A stretch of DNA of 64,000 nt, from NCBI RefSeq assembly GCF_016862635.1, contig NZ_BONI01000030.1:1-64000 (forward strand), read 5' to 3'. Shown here in pieces: positions 10,381 to 63,479 of the stretch; positions within the stretch are counted from its first letter, which is position 1, and the number at the start of each line of letters is the position of its first letter. The stretch is from Catellatospora coxensis (GTDB taxonomy: Bacteria; Actinomycetota; Actinomycetes; Mycobacteriales; Micromonosporaceae). A model generated the notes under the pieces. The model was not told the origin of the DNA. It was given only the letters and a program-made list of their open reading frames with translations, and made no database searches. The position numbers and the translations under genes were made by a program.

Positions 10381-10420
10381 CCCGCCACCCACCGCCCCGC
10401 CCCGCCCCGCCCCACCCCGT

Positions 10421-10487
10421 GGCGCAACTCTTAACGAGTTGCGCCCTGCGGCGTGCCCGGAGGCCGCAAGTCTTTAAGAGTTGCGGC
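10421..10487. repeat. Cloverleaf-like double palindrome, probable terminator
   Basis: The hairpin GGCGCAACTC-ttaac-GAGTTGCGCC (10421-10445) is followed by a second one built on GCCGCAA...TTGCGGC (10463-10487). In addition CGCAACTCTTAA (10423-10434) and TTAAGAGTTGCG (10474-10485) are exact reverse complements, so the whole 67-bp segment can fold as one long stem or two. It lies just after the PAC2 stop codon and probably ends that transcript. Confidence 0.55.
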
Positions 10488-10534
10488 GGGGAGGTTGCCG
10501 GCGGTGTGGGGGGCGGCGCGTTGTGTTGGGCTTC

Positions 10535-11838: not shown

Positions 11839-11911
11839 CCCGCCCCGCGCCAAACCCCCACTCGCGCCTAACCGCGCTGAGCCGACCCGCGCCGACCCCA
11901 CATGATCACGA

Positions 11912-11980
11912 CGATCTTGCGCGAACTGTTGCCCTTTTGCCCGGTACGAGCGTGTCGTACCCACAGTTCGCGCAAGATCG
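11912..11980. terminator. Large palindromic element between convergent genes
   Basis: The 18-bp arms CGATCTTGCGCGAACTGT (11912-11929) and ACAGTTCGCGCAAGATCG (11963-11980) match exactly. The 33-nt loop contains its own hairpin GGTACGA...TCGTACC. The element lies between the 122-residue membrane gene and mshC, which converge, so it can serve as a bidirectional terminator. It resembles in size and placement the 67- and 75-bp palindromes elsewhere in the window. Confidence 0.6.
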
Positions 11981-12018
11981 CCGCGGCGAGCGGCGGTGGG
12001 GCGTGGGGCGGGGTTGGG

Positions 12019-31364: not shown

Positions 31365-32230
31365 CAGGCTGCTCCCAGTTCCCACGCTAGCCCCGGCTCG
31401 GGAGCGCCGTCGCGCCGCACCGAGCCCTCGATCAGGCCGTACGGGCGGTCGGCCGCGAAGTACACCGCGTCGGGGTTGTCCAGGCCGAACGGCGACAGGT
31501 CGACCAGGAAGTGGTGCCGGTTCGGCAGCGCCAGCCGCACCTCGGCGACCTCGGGCACCTGCTCCAGCACCCGCTCCCCCATCGCGTACAGGGTCTGCTG
31601 CAGCGAGCGGCTGTACGTGTCCACGAACGCGCCCACCAGCCCGTCCCGGACCCCGTCGAAGGCCGCGTTCCAGTCCACGTCGAGCGTGGCGAACCGCCAG
31701 CGGGCGTCGACGGCCGTGGCCAGGATGCGGTCGTCGGCCTCGGGCAGCGTCGTGTACCGGTCGCGCGGGAAGCCCTTGAACTGCGAGCCGGTCGTGTTCA
31801 GCAGCGTCAGCCCGTGCAGCCCGCCGACGGCCCAGGCCCGCTCCGCGGTCGCGGTCAGCGTCGCGGTGCGCACCTCGTCCCCGGCGCGGGCGAACGAGTG
31901 GCCGCCGAGCCGCCGCCAGCCGTACGCCTCGACGTGCACCTGCGCCCGCTCGATCGCCTCCTGCCCGGTGACGAAGTGGCGGGCCAGCCGCAGCCCGAAC
32001 TCCTCGATGCTCGCGAAGCCGTCCCGGGCGAACGCGTACACCGTGTTCTTCTGCGTGTCGGTGGGCAGCACGTCGGCGTTGTCGCCGGTCAGGTGCGTCG
32101 CGTCGAGGCGGCCCGCGAGGCGGGTGCTGACGTTCAGGTCGGTCAGCTCGTGGCGCGCGCCGTCGCGGACCACGGTGACCAGCCGGCACTCGGCCTTGCC
32201 GTACCGGTTCGGTCCGAGGTGGAACGTCAT
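31364..32230 (-). CDS. Uricase (urate oxidase)
   Basis: The product has 288 residues, typical of cofactor-free uricase. The enzyme oxidises urate to 5-hydroxyisourate with O2, releasing H2O2. The catalytic lysine is in NRYGKAECR; the Thr of the triad is in VLPTDTQKNTVYAF; NRHHFLVDLSPF gives the His-bearing C-terminal motif. Its product goes to UraH, encoded immediately upstream, with a 1-bp overlap of stop and start. Confidence 0.95.
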   Translation of the reverse strand: MTFHLGPNRYGKAECRLVTVVRDGARHELTDLNVSTRLAGRLDATHLTGDNADVLPTDTQKNTVYAFARDGFASIEEFGLRLARHFVTGQEAIERAQVHVEAYGWRRLGGHSFARAGDEVRTATLTATAERAWAVGGLHGLTLLNTTGSQFKGFPRDRYTTLPEADDRILATAVDARWRFATLDVDWNAAFDGVRDGLVGAFVDTYSRSLQQTLYAMGERVLEQVPEVAEVRLALPNRHHFLVDLSPFGLDNPDAVYFAADRPYGLIEGSVRRDGAPEPGLAWELGAA

Positions 32231-32556
32231 CAGGACCCCCGGTAGGTGGTGTAGCCGAACTTGCTCAGCAGCAGCGGCACGTGCAGGTGGCGGGTGGTGT
32301 CGGTGACGTCGAAGACCACGGTCACCTCGGGGAAGAAACTGCCGAGCCCCTGGTACGCCGCGACGTCGAAACGCAGCCCGTAACGGCCCACCAGCCACTG
32401 CTCGGCGGGCACCCAGTCGGCGAGCCGCCCGTCGGCGTTCGTGGTCCCGGTCGCCACGACGACCCAGCCGTACTGCCCCATCCGCTGCAGCGTGACCTGC
32501 ACGTCCGCGGCGGGCTCCCCCCGGCAGGTGTCCAGCACATGCGTCGACAAGGTCAT
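32230..32556 (-). CDS. uraH: 5-hydroxyisourate hydrolase
   Basis: The product has 108 residues of the transthyretin-like family. It opens 5-hydroxyisourate to OHCU. Signature residues are LSTHVLDT at the N-terminus, the ADGRLADW loop and the C-terminal YRGS tetrapeptide (TTYRGS), which separates the enzyme from transthyretin. ATG 32556 matches the family start; an upstream start at 32595 would run into the uraD gene. Confidence 0.95.
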   Translation of the reverse strand: MTLSTHVLDTCRGEPAADVQVTLQRMGQYGWVVVATGTTNADGRLADWVPAEQWLVGRYGLRFDVAAYQGLGSFFPEVTVVFDVTDTTRHLHVPLLLSKFGYTTYRGS

Positions 32557-32572
32557 CCGGCGCTCCACTCCG

Positions 32573-33070
32573 TCATGTCCCGAACAACCGGTCAAGGCGC
32601 AGCAAGGTGATCGCCGTCAGCTCGCGGCGTACCACGTCGCGCTCGGCTGCCTCGTCGTTGGCCAGCCGCCGCCGGGCCGCGGCGAGCATCTCGTCCGCGG
32701 ATTTGCCGCTCGCGAAGATGAGGAAGACGTGGCCGAAGCGGTCCTCGTACGCCCGATTGGCCTCGACCAGGGCCGCCGCGGTCTGCTCGTCGGCAGACGC
32801 GGCCCCCGACTGCTCGCGCCGCGACCAGGCCGCCTCCCGGCCCGCGCCCGCGGCCCGCTCGCCGATGCGCGGGTGCGCGTCGAGGGCCTGCCGCACGTCC
32901 GGCCAGGACAGCGCCGCGACCGCCCCGGCGGCGACCTCGCGCAGCTCGCCGAGGCTCGCGTACGGCCGCCCGGCCGTCACCGCCCGCGCCCATGCGCTCG
33001 ACGCGTTGCAGGTCAGCAGCTCGCGTTCGGCGTCGGGGGCGGGCAGAGCGTTGAACTCGGCCGGCGACAT
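32573..33070 (-). CDS. uraD: OHCU decarboxylase
   Basis: The product has 165 residues. The enzyme decarboxylates 2-oxo-4-hydroxy-4-carboxy-5-ureidoimidazoline to S-allantoin. AHPRIGERA contains the catalytic His and substrate Arg, and RFGHVFLIFASGKSADEML is the other conserved block. ATG 33070 (MSPAEFNALP) fits the family; a TTG at 33082 is in frame. It is the first gene of the thirteen-gene operon, divergent from pucR. Confidence 0.94.
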   Translation of the reverse strand: MSPAEFNALPAPDAERELLTCNASSAWARAVTAGRPYASLGELREVAAGAVAALSWPDVRQALDAHPRIGERAAGAGREAAWSRREQSGAASADEQTAAALVEANRAYEDRFGHVFLIFASGKSADEMLAAARRRLANDEAAERDVVRRELTAITLLRLDRLFGT

Positions 33071-33117
33071 GGAATGAGTCAACTGCCCCGCCCTCTGGCG
33101 CTGAAGGGTGAGAAGGA

Positions 33118-33175: not shown

Positions 33176-34744
33176 ATGCGGCTACGTGACGTGCTGGAAC
33201 AGCCGGGTGTCCGGCTGCCGGTGCTCGCCGGGGAGGGCGAGCTGGACCGCCCCGCGCAGCTCGCGTACACCACGGACCTGCTCGACCCCGGCCGCTACCT
33301 CGCGGGCGGCGAGGTCGTGCTGACCGGCATGATGTGGCGGCGCGAGCCCGCCGACTCCGAGCTGTTCGTCGCAGCGCTCGCCGGAGCCGGGGTCGCCGCG
33401 CTCGGCGCGGGCGAGGCGCTGCTCGGGCCGGTCCCCGCCGACCTGGTCGAGGCCTGCCGGCGGCACCGGCTGCCGCTGTTCGCGGTGCCCGCCGAGGTGT
33501 CCTTCCGCGAGGTCACCGAACGCATCAACACGGTGCTCTGGGCCGAGCGCGAAGCCGGGGCGCTGGCCGCCCGCAGCCGCCGCCGGGGCCTGGTCGCCTC
33601 CCTCGCCGCCGGGGCGGACCTCGCCGAGGTCTGGCCCGCCACCGGAGCCTGGGTGCTGACCAGCACCGGCCGCGCCATGGTCGGCGAACGCGGCGGCGCG
33701 CCGCACGACCTCGCCGTCGGGCGGCGGCTCGCGACGGCGTTCCTGCGCGCCGACAACCTGCCCGCCCGCCTCCGGATCGGCGAGCAGGAGTTCCACCTCG
33801 ACGCGCCCGCGCCCGCCGCCGCGCCGGGCATGCGCTTCGTCGCCTGCGCCGACCCGGGCCTGCTCGAAGAACTCGTCGAACTGACCGCACTGGACGCGGC
33901 CCGCTCCGACCGCGCGCGCCGGATCGAGCGCCGCCTCGCCACCCACCTCGCCGACGCACTGACCTCCGCCACCGACCCCGCCGAAATCACCCCCGCCCTC
34001 CACGCCTGCGGCCTACCCCCCACCGGCCCATACACCGTCCTCGTCGCCTCCCTCCCCACCCCGTACCCCTCCGGGCCCGCTTCCGGCGCGGCCGGCAGTT
34101 TCGGGGAAAGCAAACGAAACGGGTTCGCGAAAGGTGCGGTTTCCCCGAAACTGCAGAGCGCCGACGGCGCAGCCGTCGCGGTGGTCGAGGAGATGGTCCC
34201 GGGAGCGGTCGTCGCGGGCGTGGGCGGGGAGGTCGTGGCGGTGGTCGCGGGCACCGGCGGGCTCGATGAGCTGCGCGAGGCGGCACGGCATCTCACGACG
34301 GCGGCTCGGGGCACGCGGTTCGCGGCAGGCGTGAGCGAACCCGCGGCGACCGTCGCCGAACTCGCGGGGGCGCTGTCACAGGCCCGGCACGCGCACGGGT
34401 ACGCCCTCGACCGGCCGGACCGGGTGTCGGTCGTCGGCAGCGACGAGCTGGCCTCGCACGACCTGCTGCTCGCGGGCGTGCCCCGGGCGGCCCGGCAGGC
34501 GTTCGCCGACCGGCTGCTCGCGCCGCTGCGGGCGTACGACGCCGACCACCACGCCGACCTGGTGCGCACCCTGCAGACGTTCCTGGCCTGCGACGGCTCG
34601 TGGACGCGCTGCGCGAGCGCGATGCACCTGCACGTCAACACGCTGCGCTACCGCATCCGCCGCATCGCCGACCTCACCGGCCGCGACCTCGACCGCTTCG
34701 CCGACCGCGTAGACCTCTACCTCGCCCTGCGCCTCGACACCTGA
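33176..34744 (+). CDS. pucR: PucR-family purine catabolism regulator
   Basis: The product has 522 residues. The N-terminal PucR sensor domain opens MRLRDVLEQPGVRLPVLAGE and has YTTDLLDPGRYLAGGEVVLTG. The C-terminal helix-turn-helix of this family is TRCASAMHLHVNTLRYRIRR, followed by IADLTGRDL. ATG 33176 has AAAGG 8 nt upstream; GTG 33170 is in frame but too close. It is divergent from the purine operon and is its likely activator or repressor. Residues ~306-327 (GSFGESKRNGFAKGAVSPKL) come from a 60-bp palindromic insertion and should form an exposed loop. Confidence 0.93.
   Translation: MRLRDVLEQPGVRLPVLAGEGELDRPAQLAYTTDLLDPGRYLAGGEVVLTGMMWRREPADSELFVAALAGAGVAALGAGEALLGPVPADLVEACRRHRLPLFAVPAEVSFREVTERINTVLWAEREAGALAARSRRRGLVASLAAGADLAEVWPATGAWVLTSTGRAMVGERGGAPHDLAVGRRLATAFLRADNLPARLRIGEQEFHLDAPAPAAAPGMRFVACADPGLLEELVELTALDAARSDRARRIERRLATHLADALTSATDPAEITPALHACGLPPTGPYTVLVASLPTPYPSGPASGAAGSFGESKRNGFAKGAVSPKLQSADGAAVAVVEEMVPGAVVAGVGGEVVAVVAGTGGLDELREAARHLTTAARGTRFAAGVSEPAATVAELAGALSQARHAHGYALDRPDRVSVVGSDELASHDLLLAGVPRAARQAFADRLLAPLRAYDADHHADLVRTLQTFLACDGSWTRCASAMHLHVNTLRYRIRRIADLTGRDLDRFADRVDLYLALRLDT
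34095..34154. repeat. 60-bp inverted repeat in frame inside pucR
   Basis: The 15-bp arms GCAGTTTCGGGGAAA (34095-34109) and TTTCCCCGAAACTGC (34140-34154) are exact reverse complements with a 30-nt loop. By my count 34 of 60 bases are G or C, well below the neighbourhood. The length is a multiple of three, so the frame survives. It looks like a palindromic element that inserted into the gene; the alternative is a pair of intragenic regulator sites. Confidence 0.75.
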
Positions 34745-34758
34745 CGCCCGCCCGTCAT

Positions 34759-34833
34759 GATCGCTCGACTTGCCAGGCACCTGGGCGTATGACCGCTCAA
34801 GATACGCACGAGTGCCCGGCAAGTCGGACGATC
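34759..34833. repeat. 75-bp palindromic element, family A copy 1
   Basis: The arms run GATCGCTCGACTTGCC...GCGTAT and ATACGC...GGCAAGTCGGACGATC. It shares sequence, order and exact length with the copy at 41740-41814. It lies between the convergent pucR and LLM genes and could terminate both. Confidence 0.7.
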
Positions 34834-36722: not shown

Positions 36723-36789
36723 CATAGACGTTGGCCTATCTCGTCGAGTTTTCGCGACTCGGAGTCGACGGGATAGGCCAACGTCTATG
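36723..36789. repeat. 67-bp palindromic element, family B copy 1
   Basis: The 18-bp arms CATAGACGTTGGCCTATC (36723-36740) and its exact reverse complement (36772-36789) enclose a 31-nt loop. Copies of the same length are at 51781-51847 and 57212-57278. This one lies between convergent tetR and the phosphatase gene and could end both transcripts. Confidence 0.8.
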
Positions 36790-40771: not shown

Positions 40772-41740
40772 ATGCAGCAACGACCGCTGGGCCGTAGCGG
40801 GCTGGTGGTCTCCCGCCTGGCCCTGGGCACCATGACCTGGGGCCTGGACACCGATCCGGACGACGCGGGCGCACAGCTCAAGGCGTATGTGGACGCCGGC
40901 GGCACGCTGCTCGACACCGCCGACGTGTACGCCGACGGCGAGGCCGAAGCCGTGCTGGGCACGCTGCTGGACGCCATGGTCGCCCGCGACGACGTGCTGA
41001 TCGTCGCCAAGGCCGGGCTGCGGGCACGGGCCGGCCGCCGCCACGACGGCTCGCGCGGGCACCTGCTGCGCACCCTCGACACCACGCTGCGCCGCCTCGG
41101 CGTGTCTTATGTGGACCTGTGGCAGGTGCACGGGCACGACCCGGACACCCCGTGGGAGGAGACCCTGGCCGCGCTCGACCACGCGGTCAGCTCCGGCAGG
41201 GCCCGCTACGCCGGTGTGTCGAACTTCTCCGGCTGGCAGACCGGCCGCGCCGTGACCTGGCAGCAGGCCTGGCCGGGCCGCGCCCCGATCGTGGCCACCC
41301 AGATGGAGTACTCGCTGCTGCAGCGCGGCATCGAACGGGAGGTGCTGCCCGCGGCGGCGGCCCTGGGCCTGGGCGTGCTGCCCTGGTCACCACTGGGCCG
41401 CGGGGTGCTGACCGGCAAGTACCGCCACGGCCGCCCGGCCGACTCGCGGGCCGCGTCACCGCACTTCGAGCGCTCGGTGCTGCCGTACCTGCAACCGCGC
41501 TGCTCGGCGATCGTCGAGGCGGTGGCGACCGCCGCCGACGGCCTGGGCGTGTCCGCCGCCGAGGTCGCCCTGGCCTGGGTGCGCGACCGCCCCGGGGTGA
41601 CCGCGCCGATCCTCGGCGCCCGCAACGTCGGCCAGCTCGTCGCGGCACTCCAGGTCGAGGAGATCGACCTGCCCCCCGAGATCTCCCGCGCCCTCGACGA
41701 CGTCTCCGCGATCCCCCTCGGCTACCCCGAGCTGGAGTAG
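40772..41740 (+). CDS. Aldo/keto reductase
   Basis: The product has 322 residues. The catalytic tetrad is visible: Asp and Tyr in LLDTADVYADGEAE, Lys in VLIVAKAG, His in LWQVHGHDP. The NADPH-binding end includes SPLGRGVLTGKY and APILGARNVGQL. ATG 40772 lies 7 nt after TACAGT, so the mRNA is probably leaderless. A family A palindrome begins in the last base of its stop codon. Confidence 0.93.
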   Translation: MQQRPLGRSGLVVSRLALGTMTWGLDTDPDDAGAQLKAYVDAGGTLLDTADVYADGEAEAVLGTLLDAMVARDDVLIVAKAGLRARAGRRHDGSRGHLLRTLDTTLRRLGVSYVDLWQVHGHDPDTPWEETLAALDHAVSSGRARYAGVSNFSGWQTGRAVTWQQAWPGRAPIVATQMEYSLLQRGIEREVLPAAAALGLGVLPWSPLGRGVLTGKYRHGRPADSRAASPHFERSVLPYLQPRCSAIVEAVATAADGLGVSAAEVALAWVRDRPGVTAPILGARNVGQLVAALQVEEIDLPPEISRALDDVSAIPLGYPELE

Positions 41741-41814
41741 ATCATCCGACTTGCCCGGCACCTGTGCGTATCTTGACCGGCCATTCACCCGGTTGCCTGG
41801 CAAGTCGAACGATC
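41740..41814. repeat. 75-bp palindromic element, family A copy 2
   Basis: The arms run GATCATCCGACTTGCCCGGC and GCCTGGCAAGTCGAACGATC around a variable middle. It has the same length and outer sequence as 34759-34833. It starts at the aldo/keto reductase stop codon and is likely to act as its terminator. Confidence 0.7.
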
Positions 41815-51763: not shown

Positions 51764-51780
51764 CCCCGCCCTCCGCTTTT

Positions 51781-51847
51781 CAACGACGTTGGCCTATCTC
51801 ATCGAAAAAACGCGCGCCACAGTCGACGTAATAGGCCAACGTCGATG
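51781..51847. repeat. 67-bp palindromic element, family B copy 2
   Basis: The arms CAACGACGTTGGCCTAT (51781-51797) and ATAGGCCAACGTCGATG (51831-51847) pair with one mismatch. Its length equals that of the other two copies. It lies between the convergent DinB and 61-residue genes. Confidence 0.8.
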
Positions 51848-51892
51848 AGCGGCGGAGCAGGCGGCGGGCAGGCGGCGGGCGGGCGGCGGGGG

Positions 51893-62378: not shown

Positions 62379-63365
62379 ATGCCGCACCACGCTGCCGGAC
62401 CGCTCGCGCTCGCCGTCGACATCGGCGGCACCAAGATGGCCGCCGGACTCGTCGACGCCGACGGGACCGTGCTGGCCGCCGACCGCATCCCCACGCCGCG
62501 CCCGCTGCCGGGCCCGGACGCGGGCGAGCAGGTGTGGGCCGGGCTGTCGGCGATGCTCGACGGCCTGCTCAAGGCCACCGCCGACCGGCCCGTGATCGGG
62601 GTCGGCGCCAGCACCGCCGGCCCGTTCGACCTGGCCGGGGCCACGGTGAGCCCGGTCAACATCACCGCCTGGCGGGGCTTCCCGCTGGTCGACCGGCTCG
62701 CCGCGCAGGTGCCCGGCGTGCCGGTGCGGCTGGCCGGCGACGGGGTGTGCGCGGCGATCGGCGAGCACTGGCGCGGGGCGGGCCGCGGGCACGACGACCT
62801 GCTGGTGCTCGTGGTGTCGACCGGCGTCGGCGGGGGGCTCGTACACGGCGGGCGGCCCTTCACCGGCCGGTCCGGCAATGCCGGGCATGTCGGCCACATG
62901 GTCGTCGACCTCGACGGGGACGACTGCCCGTGCGGCGGGCGCGGCTGCGTGGAGGCGATCGCCAGCGGACCGAGCATGGTCCGGTACGCGCTGCGCGAAG
63001 GCTGGCGGCCGGCCGGCGACGGCACCGCCCGCGACCTGGCCGACGCCGCCCGCTCCGGCGACCTGGTGGCTTTGCGCGCGTTCACCCGCGGCGCCGACGC
63101 CCTGGCCGCGGGCATCGTCTCGGCCGCCGCGATGTGCGACCTGAACCAGGTGGTGATCGGCGGCGGCGTCGCCGGCGCCGCCGACCTGCTCTTCCCCCCG
63201 CTGAAGGAGGCCCTGGCCCGCTTCGGCCGCCTCGGCTTCCTCCAGCACGTCACGGTCACCCCTGCCCAGCTCGCCGGCGACGCCGGCCTGATCGGCGCCG
63301 CCGCCCTCATCCACTCCCCCGACCCCTACTGGCCCGGCACCCCACCCCCACCCCCACTGCATTGA
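62379..63365 (+). CDS. ROK-family sugar kinase
   Basis: The product has 328 residues. LAVDIGGTKMAAGLVD is the phosphate loop and STGVGGGLVHGGRPFTGRSG the substrate loop. The zinc site is HMVVDLDGDDCPCGGRGCVE. The spacing fits glucokinase-type ROK enzymes, but N-acetylsugar specificity is possible. AGGAG stands 5-6 nt before ATG 62379. Regulation by the divergent LacI protein is likely. Confidence 0.92.
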   Translation: MPHHAAGPLALAVDIGGTKMAAGLVDADGTVLAADRIPTPRPLPGPDAGEQVWAGLSAMLDGLLKATADRPVIGVGASTAGPFDLAGATVSPVNITAWRGFPLVDRLAAQVPGVPVRLAGDGVCAAIGEHWRGAGRGHDDLLVLVVSTGVGGGLVHGGRPFTGRSGNAGHVGHMVVDLDGDDCPCGGRGCVEAIASGPSMVRYALREGWRPAGDGTARDLADAARSGDLVALRAFTRGADALAAGIVSAAAMCDLNQVVIGGGVAGAADLLFPPLKEALARFGRLGFLQHVTVTPAQLAGDAGLIGAAALIHSPDPYWPGTPPPPPLH

Positions 63366-63420
63366 TCATGAAGTTGTGGCAACGACACACCGCCGAGCCG
63401 TGCCATAAGTTCATGATCAA
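63362..63420. terminator. 59-bp palindromic element between convergent genes
   Basis: The arms TTGATCATGAAGTTGTGG and its near complement CCATAAGTTCATGATCAA match at 18 of 20 positions including the next two bases. It begins at the ROK stop codon and faces the convergent last gene. It is probably a bidirectional terminator. Confidence 0.65.
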
Positions 63421-63479
63421 CCCGGCGGGGCCCGGGGCCCGGGGCCCGGTGGCGGGCGGGGGCGGGGGGCGGGGGCGGG

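Follow-up and report, generated by a model that had tools for sequence, protein, structure and literature searches.

Repetitive extragenic palindromic sequences (REPs) carrying a GTAG or CGTC tag are found chiefly 3' of coding regions, in the gaps between convergent or unidirectional genes, and are often paired, with spacers of similar length; some sit inside genes and add amino acids to the product, REPs within coding regions have been reported from several species, and the CGTC-tagged group is said to have no dedicated transposase (PMC3733652). REPINs, known from Pseudomonas and others, have inverted, conserved palindromic ends, keep their spacer length and hairpin-forming capacity with little conservation of the spacer sequence, show compensatory changes, and are dispersed and extragenic (PMC3116915). 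The palindromic elements of Rickettsia are about 150 bp long, with ten families and 44 integrations in genes of R. conorii (PMC10969869), and DNA uptake sequences, motifs of 9-11 nt generally numbering at least 1,000 per genome, are paired as terminators (PMC1852404). Here we describe a 60-bp palindrome lying in frame in the gene pucR of Catellatospora coxensis, within a stretch of 64,000 nucleotides (contig NZ_BONI01000030.1, positions 1 to 64,000) that we call the window. It is probably one copy of a non-autonomous palindrome, similar to a REPIN or REP doublet, whose copies have multiplied in the genomes of Catellatospora. A literature search over titles and abstract openings found no description of this palindrome among the records listed. 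The gene and the parts of the element are as follows.

33176..34744, plus strand: pucR, encoding a PucR-type regulator of 522 amino acids (Pfam PucR, GGDEF_2 and HTH_30), with the PucR domain at residues 5-119, the GGDEF-like domain at residues 267-406 and HTH_30 at residues 462-520
34095..34154, no strand assigned: the 60-bp palindromic element, in frame in pucR, touching codons 307-327 and read as GSFGESKRNGFAKGAVSPKLQ
34095..34109, plus strand: left arm, 15 nt, GCAGTTTCGGGGAAA
34110..34139, plus strand: loop, 30 nt, near-fixed in length and variable in sequence across the family
34140..34154, plus strand: right arm, 15 nt, TTTCCCCGAAACTGC, the reverse complement of the left arm

The architecture GCAGTTTCGGGGAAA-N30-TTTCCCCGAAACTGC, with both 15-nt arms in exact inverted match, is the one that an earlier note, made from the sequence alone, had described at this place, and its remark on a low GC content also holds, the element having 56.7% against 73.1% for the window, a value equally low in 1.3% of the window 60-mers. 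The palindrome exceeds chance and is confirmed as a real feature: exact 15-nt arms around a loop of 3-60 nt occur at 3 separate places in the window and in none of 10 block shuffles, and the RNA fold of the element has a z score of -3.3, with 1 of 200 shuffles folding equally well. An Rfam search at the element returned microRNA models only, all below threshold, and no known RNA family. In the family consensus, the left arm is part of a 19-bp near-palindrome, GCAGTTTC-GGG-GAAACTGC.

The pucR reading frame runs uninterrupted through the element, which begins at position 2 of codon 307. In the predicted structure, a model of low overall confidence (mean predicted local distance difference test score, pLDDT, 54.9; 8 sequences), the insert lies between the strand at residues 286-292 and the helix at residues 329-340 of the GGDEF-like domain, and the segment 295-329 that holds it has a pLDDT below 50 and no predicted structure. 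Of 30 pucR loci returned by the search, 15 were aligned, namely those of the 11 Catellatospora genomes compared (G000-G010) and four outgroup orthologues. The same element is present in eight of the 11 (G000-G006 and G010), and no insert is present in G007, G008 and G009 or in the outgroups (G310, G353, G014 and G131), so the in-frame coding insertion proposed in the earlier note is upheld, and no orthologue aligned has, in its place, a loop of similar length made of unrelated DNA. The flanks of the window copy are 80-93% identical to those of the other carriers examined. In a tree of the 15 proteins with the insert region removed, G007-G009 group together (support 100) and a split with support 89 divides the eight carriers from G007-G009 and the outgroups, so that a single gain suffices for pucR.

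A transporter gene shows the same pattern in other genomes: it holds a copy in G008 and G009 only (2 of 11), read in a different frame as AVSGKVQES, and has none in G007, whose protein is 92% identical, or in the eight other genomes. The G009 transporter with its element is present twice (G009:C1:49823-51178 and G009:C44:28281-29636) with 100% protein identity, possibly as an assembly duplicate. A third in-frame copy, looked at in G009 only, lies in a DUF5682/VWA protein that reads GGSFGETAGNGAKIRAVSPKLH across the element. These comparisons give good support to the window element having been inserted in frame as a copy of a dispersed palindrome, and they show gains confined to clades, one in pucR and a separate one in the transporter gene.

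The dispersal is seen in the genome of the window itself, where a 13-nt arm pattern with at most one mismatch has 28+28 matches against 0 for the reversed control. A covariance model trained on 21 copies from this genome, the window copy among them, finds, once the two strands are merged, about 41 places (E <= 0.001), and its match to the window copy is exactly 34095-34154. The genome thus holds the further copies that the earlier note had suggested looking for. All 11 Catellatospora genomes match the model, with counts that are lower bounds, and the exact pattern GTTTCNNNGAAA-N26..34-TTTCNNNGAAAC has 13, 61, 32, 10, 20, 44, 65, 145, 185, 129 and 45 copies in G000 to G010, respectively; allowing up to three mismatches gives 80 copies in G006 and 47 in G002. 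Across the family Micromonosporaceae, 36 of the 354 genomes searched, from 4 of 44 genera, have the exact pattern, with a reversed control of 0 in each. Of these 36, 25 lie outside Catellatospora, and the other genera keep the architecture and alter the inner stem letters. One of the genomes, G085 (L137-L144), has a related family of longer palindromes, mostly with GATC ends and a 31-nt loop, in 27 exact copies.

The copies are uniform in size, the loop being 30 nt in 25 of 26 copies when 26-34 nt were permitted, and 144 of 153 distinct copies being 60 nt long in a scan that permitted loops of 29-31 nt only. The arm letters are near-invariant across copies with unrelated loops, and solo arms are rare in the DNA examined. 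Loop letters are common to copies within the G007-G009 group, unlike those of G000 and G006.

Within pucR, it is the palindrome that has been kept. The mean pairwise difference among the eight copies is 0.129 in the arms, with no excess at third positions (0.132, 0.126 and 0.130 by codon position), compared with 0.254 and 0.276 at the third positions of the two flanks (0.271 overall) and 0.418 in the loop. Set against random flank third positions, the difference of 0.130 at the arm third positions (n=14) has a P of 0.019, and that of 0.062 in the arm core (n=8) a P of 0.008. The pairs 3:58, 14:47 and 17:44 have changed on both sides with pairing kept in 8 of 8 copies (G-U counted), and pair 16:45 is broken in four of the eight. 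Since the arms have changed less than flank third positions and the loop more, what is constrained in pucR, as judged from these substitutions, is the palindrome rather than the peptide; the stem appears to be kept at the nucleotide level with loop and peptide drifting.

Similar covariation is found in the family at large. Among 144 copies from several genomes, 9 of 30 pairs (3:58, 6:55, 9:52, 14:47, 16:45, 17:44, 22:39, 23:38 and 24:37) pair above shuffles at P <= 0.02, uncorrected for relatedness and multiple testing, and eight of the nine have changed on both sides. Pair 21:40 is paired below chance (49 against 68.6 expected), an effect present in G008 and not in G000 or G006; among 26 copies of G008, the fraction with positions 21 and 40 paired is 0.19, where 0.52 is expected, as though two types of half existed and an element had one of each.

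Placement was counted over 1.65 Mb, in seven stretch sets drawn from five genomes and picked by position, G008:C1 for its richness in copies and others for adjoining pucR. The count leaves out two stretch pairs that hold the pucR copies of G001 and G006, treats orthologous copies as separate, and uses genes called with a custom codon-usage script. Of 71 copies, 39 lie between convergent genes, 29 between tandem genes and 2 between divergent genes, and 1, the G008 transporter copy, is genic; for the 70 intergenic copies, the space available would lead one to expect 12.8 between convergent genes (p 3e-12) and 21.1 between divergent genes (p 1e-8). Among the tandem copies, 28 of 29 are closer to the 3' end of the upstream gene, at a median of 36 nt compared with 142 nt to the next gene. 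The sample from the genome of the window (n=24) has 13 tandem, 10 convergent, 1 genic and no divergent copies. The copies form stable RNA hairpins, with a mean minimum free energy of -37 kcal/mol over 147 copies. The family is mainly a terminator-like REP doublet at gene 3' ends that occasionally lands in genes.

Across about 240 kb compared between G001 and G006, 7 of the 8 G001 copies have an orthologue in G006, which shows that most copies compared in this pair were inherited vertically. Loops can be compared at nine scorable orthologous loci, and at two of them the reverse complement matches better (20/24 against 8, and 20/24 against 13), so the loop appears, on this sequence match, to have flipped in place between the arms, with re-insertion in the opposite orientation as the alternative. 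The small inversions of hairpin loops in chloroplast genomes are such in-place flips between inverted arms, and the Catellatospora flips would be of the same type in a bacterial repeat family.

We favor a REPIN-like palindrome multiplied in Catellatospora, of which the pucR copy would have landed once, in the common ancestor of the eight carrier species. Its landing site, a loop of the GGDEF-like domain, would have tolerated the 20 added codons (60 bases without a stop). A hairpin that is alike from both strands and placed right behind stop codons is suggestive of transcription ending from either direction; copies would persist mainly there if the stem-loop, readable both ways, works or is harmless in that role. 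Since then, selection would have acted on the nucleic acid of the pucR stem, through protein binding or an RNA or DNA hairpin, and not on the peptide, and so kept the stem.

Several results weigh against this interpretation. No target-site duplication or clean recent empty site was found, the flanks at gained sites being too diverged, and no transposase was found for the family. All 15 of 15 further candidate genic copies, open frames by tblastn, turned out to be intergenic. The third-position comparison in pucR is built on just 8 to 14 sites, and in the genome of the window alone (21 copies) pairing barely exceeds column expectation. The 3' bias is weaker in other genera (n=18), with 7 convergent, 7 tandem, 3 divergent and 1 edge copies. 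There is no U-run, and the columns flanking the arms are not A/T-rich. Moreover, 74 tandem copies read on the transcript strand show no G-U preference (G-U 19 against A-C 28, p 0.24). An RNA-hairpin terminator would predict such a preference, and its absence speaks against a plain RNA terminator. The 73 convergent copies have G-U 27 against A-C 36, and the eight pucR copies lean to G-U (5 G-U against 1 A-C cells), which are too few to test. RNA-level selection by way of a G-U preference was thus set aside on the null result in tandem copies.

A known mover was sought among the Y1 transposases. Matches to PF01797 occur in 6 of 11 Catellatospora genomes, and in none of G007-G009, which have the highest copy numbers. 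Of the six genomes with matches (G000 and G002-G006), G003, G005 and G006 are those whose Y1 proteins were scored against NCBIfam; these three belong to the IS200 family, and the model for the REP-associated tyrosine transposase (RAYT) scored under its cut-off or did not appear among the models listed. On this distribution and the IS200-type scores, spread driven by RAYT is unsupported. As to a parent insertion sequence, 360 kb of G008 hold no solo arm, and the few solo arms in L028, L037 and L173 (one) have no partner within the stretch. No GTAG or CGTC tag was recognized either, as the nine columns outside the arms (-12 to -4) have no such consensus in 71 copies from four genomes.

The main rival, which we regard as possible, though on balance doubtful, is that the elements are pairs of protein-binding sites, the 19-bp near-palindromes GCAGTTTC-GGG-GAAACTGC being bound by a dimeric protein, e.g., for chromosome organization or nucleoid occlusion, with centers 41 bp apart (about four helical turns) and the hairpin incidental. 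Near-invariant arms around unrelated loops, the loop length of 30 in 25 of 26 copies, arms conserved even within the coding gene pucR and the lack of a G-U preference would all fit such sites. So would the sparse copies near the inferred terminus in G006, where 4 of 48 exact copies lie in the nearest quarter (p 0.003, the list being complete for exact copies only and the 32 mismatched copies mostly outside the count), and on contig C1 of G007, where among the matches listed 3 of 61 copies lie in the first quarter (p 4e-5). However, positions 22-24 covary with 39-37 and 16 with 45, a pairing that separate sites do not need, the inner sequence varies between genera with its symmetry kept, and the terminus effect is weak in G002 (6/46, p 0.04; Kolmogorov-Smirnov p 0.38). 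The thinning is also confounded with accessory DNA, which may be a simpler cause of the sparse regions. Among the matches listed, copies are few or absent in G006:C1 4.88-6.99 Mb, in G007:C1 0-1.2 Mb and in G007:C2 0-0.74 Mb, regions that surround the inferred terminus and lie away from the parS cluster.

That the palindrome is a purely selfish element without function, its 3' placement a remainder of purifying selection and its arm conservation a sign of youth, seems to us unlikely. The REPIN-like anatomy would suit it, as would the G008 copies that are absent from the aligned place in G009 and the 88 of 144 copies that are stop-free in all six frames, compared with 67.7 +- 5.8 by column resampling. 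The pucR copy is old, yet its arms have changed less than third codon positions and its loop more. Stop-codon avoidance was also considered as a trait of the family and was dropped, as it weakens once column composition is kept.

We give still less credence to ordinary bidirectional terminators selected in place, whose likeness would reflect the preference of a factor and of which none would move. They would account for the 3'-end placement and for the locus L223 (G008:C11 near 111856), where one and the same gene end has this element in G008, another hairpin in G009 and a third in G000, with flanks about 96% identical between G008 and G009. They would not account for in-frame copies in pucR and the transporter that related species lack, for loop letters common within G007-G009 and different in G000 and G006, or for the missing U-run and G-U preference. 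Loss of an element ancestral in pucR is highly improbable: one deletion would suffice within the genus, as G007-G009 form one group, but the four aligned orthologues from other genera also lack the element, the carriers form one group against these and G007-G009 (support 89), and the transporter shows a gain in G008 and G009 against G007 and eight others.

Beyond the preferred REPIN-like interpretation, a broader generalization is tentative at best, namely that Micromonosporaceae palindromes of about 55-75 bp are a sequence-specific class spread by machinery other than the known REP transposases, interchangeable and invertible devices of gene ends, possibly also protein sites on the chromosome thinned toward the terminus, and occasionally in frame with their nucleic-acid function kept.

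The window holds hairpins of other types as well. The hairpin at 34759..34833 (no strand assigned), directly 3' of the pucR stop codon, is pucR's own 3'-end hairpin and belongs to a different, second gene-end type, GATCGNNCGACTTGCC.GGCAC ... GTGCC.GGCAAGTCG.ACGATC, found also at 41740-41814; pattern counts for this type are unreliable, the reversed control being also high. A third family, ACGTTGGCCTAT ... ATAGGCCAACGT, lies at 36723-36789 and 51771-51857, with 16 copies in 360 kb of G008 (13 convergent, reversed control 0), and is at or near control level in the stretches of G006, G001 and G009. Further hairpins lie at 63333-63449, of the TGATCATGAAGTT type with 14 matches in 360 kb of G008 (control 0), and at 10387-10521, of the GGCGCAACTC type, which is not above control. 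A near-perfect inverted repeat at 11909-11983 has 21-nt arms at 95% and a 33-nt loop. The genes adjoining pucR at 32230-33082 resemble, by eye, those of hydroxyisourate hydrolase and OHCU decarboxylase, which would make this a purine breakdown cluster.

An inserted stem held at the nucleotide level in eight species, with its peptide drifting, would be a clean case of intragenic nucleic-acid selection. In-frame insertion of palindromes is best known from Rickettsia, together with scattered genic REPs, and is met here in a high-GC actinobacterium. With 10-185 copies per genome by the exact pattern and no REP transposase found, the mover or maintainer of the family can be sought by genome comparison.

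The earlier note had named the Rickettsia elements as the closest precedent. This is apt in that a palindrome lies in frame in unrelated protein genes, here three, and adds a peptide (PMC10969869, PMC3733652); the frequent coding location is not shared, as the Catellatospora element has 60 bp and one family, with 1 of 71 copies genic. Rickettsia is also not the only close precedent, given the REPIN anatomy and the genic REPs already reported (PMC3733652). With tagged REPs the family has in common its placement downstream of genes and some genic copies, whereas it has no GTAG or CGTC tag and no excess of the G-T stem pairing that is frequent there (PMC3733652); in the portions of that source available, we found no description of loop flips or of a genic stem kept at the nucleotide level over eight species. 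It shares with REPINs the inverted conserved ends, the kept spacer length and the compensatory changes, and differs in its in-frame genic copies and in that no RAYT was found, Y1 proteins occurring in 6 of 11 genomes and three of them scoring as IS200-type (PMC3116915). SPRITE, a terminator-like miniature inverted-repeat transposable element of Streptococcus pneumoniae, is likened to it by description as a dispersed terminator-like hairpin, the Catellatospora element being without a T-run (PMC10969869). DNA uptake sequences likewise place a conserved motif as an inverted pair after gene ends, but unpaired arms are rare in the Catellatospora DNA examined (PMC1852404). In outcome the Catellatospora palindrome thus resembles the Rickettsia elements, and in anatomy and place it resembles a REP doublet; its tags, transposase and letters set it apart from both.
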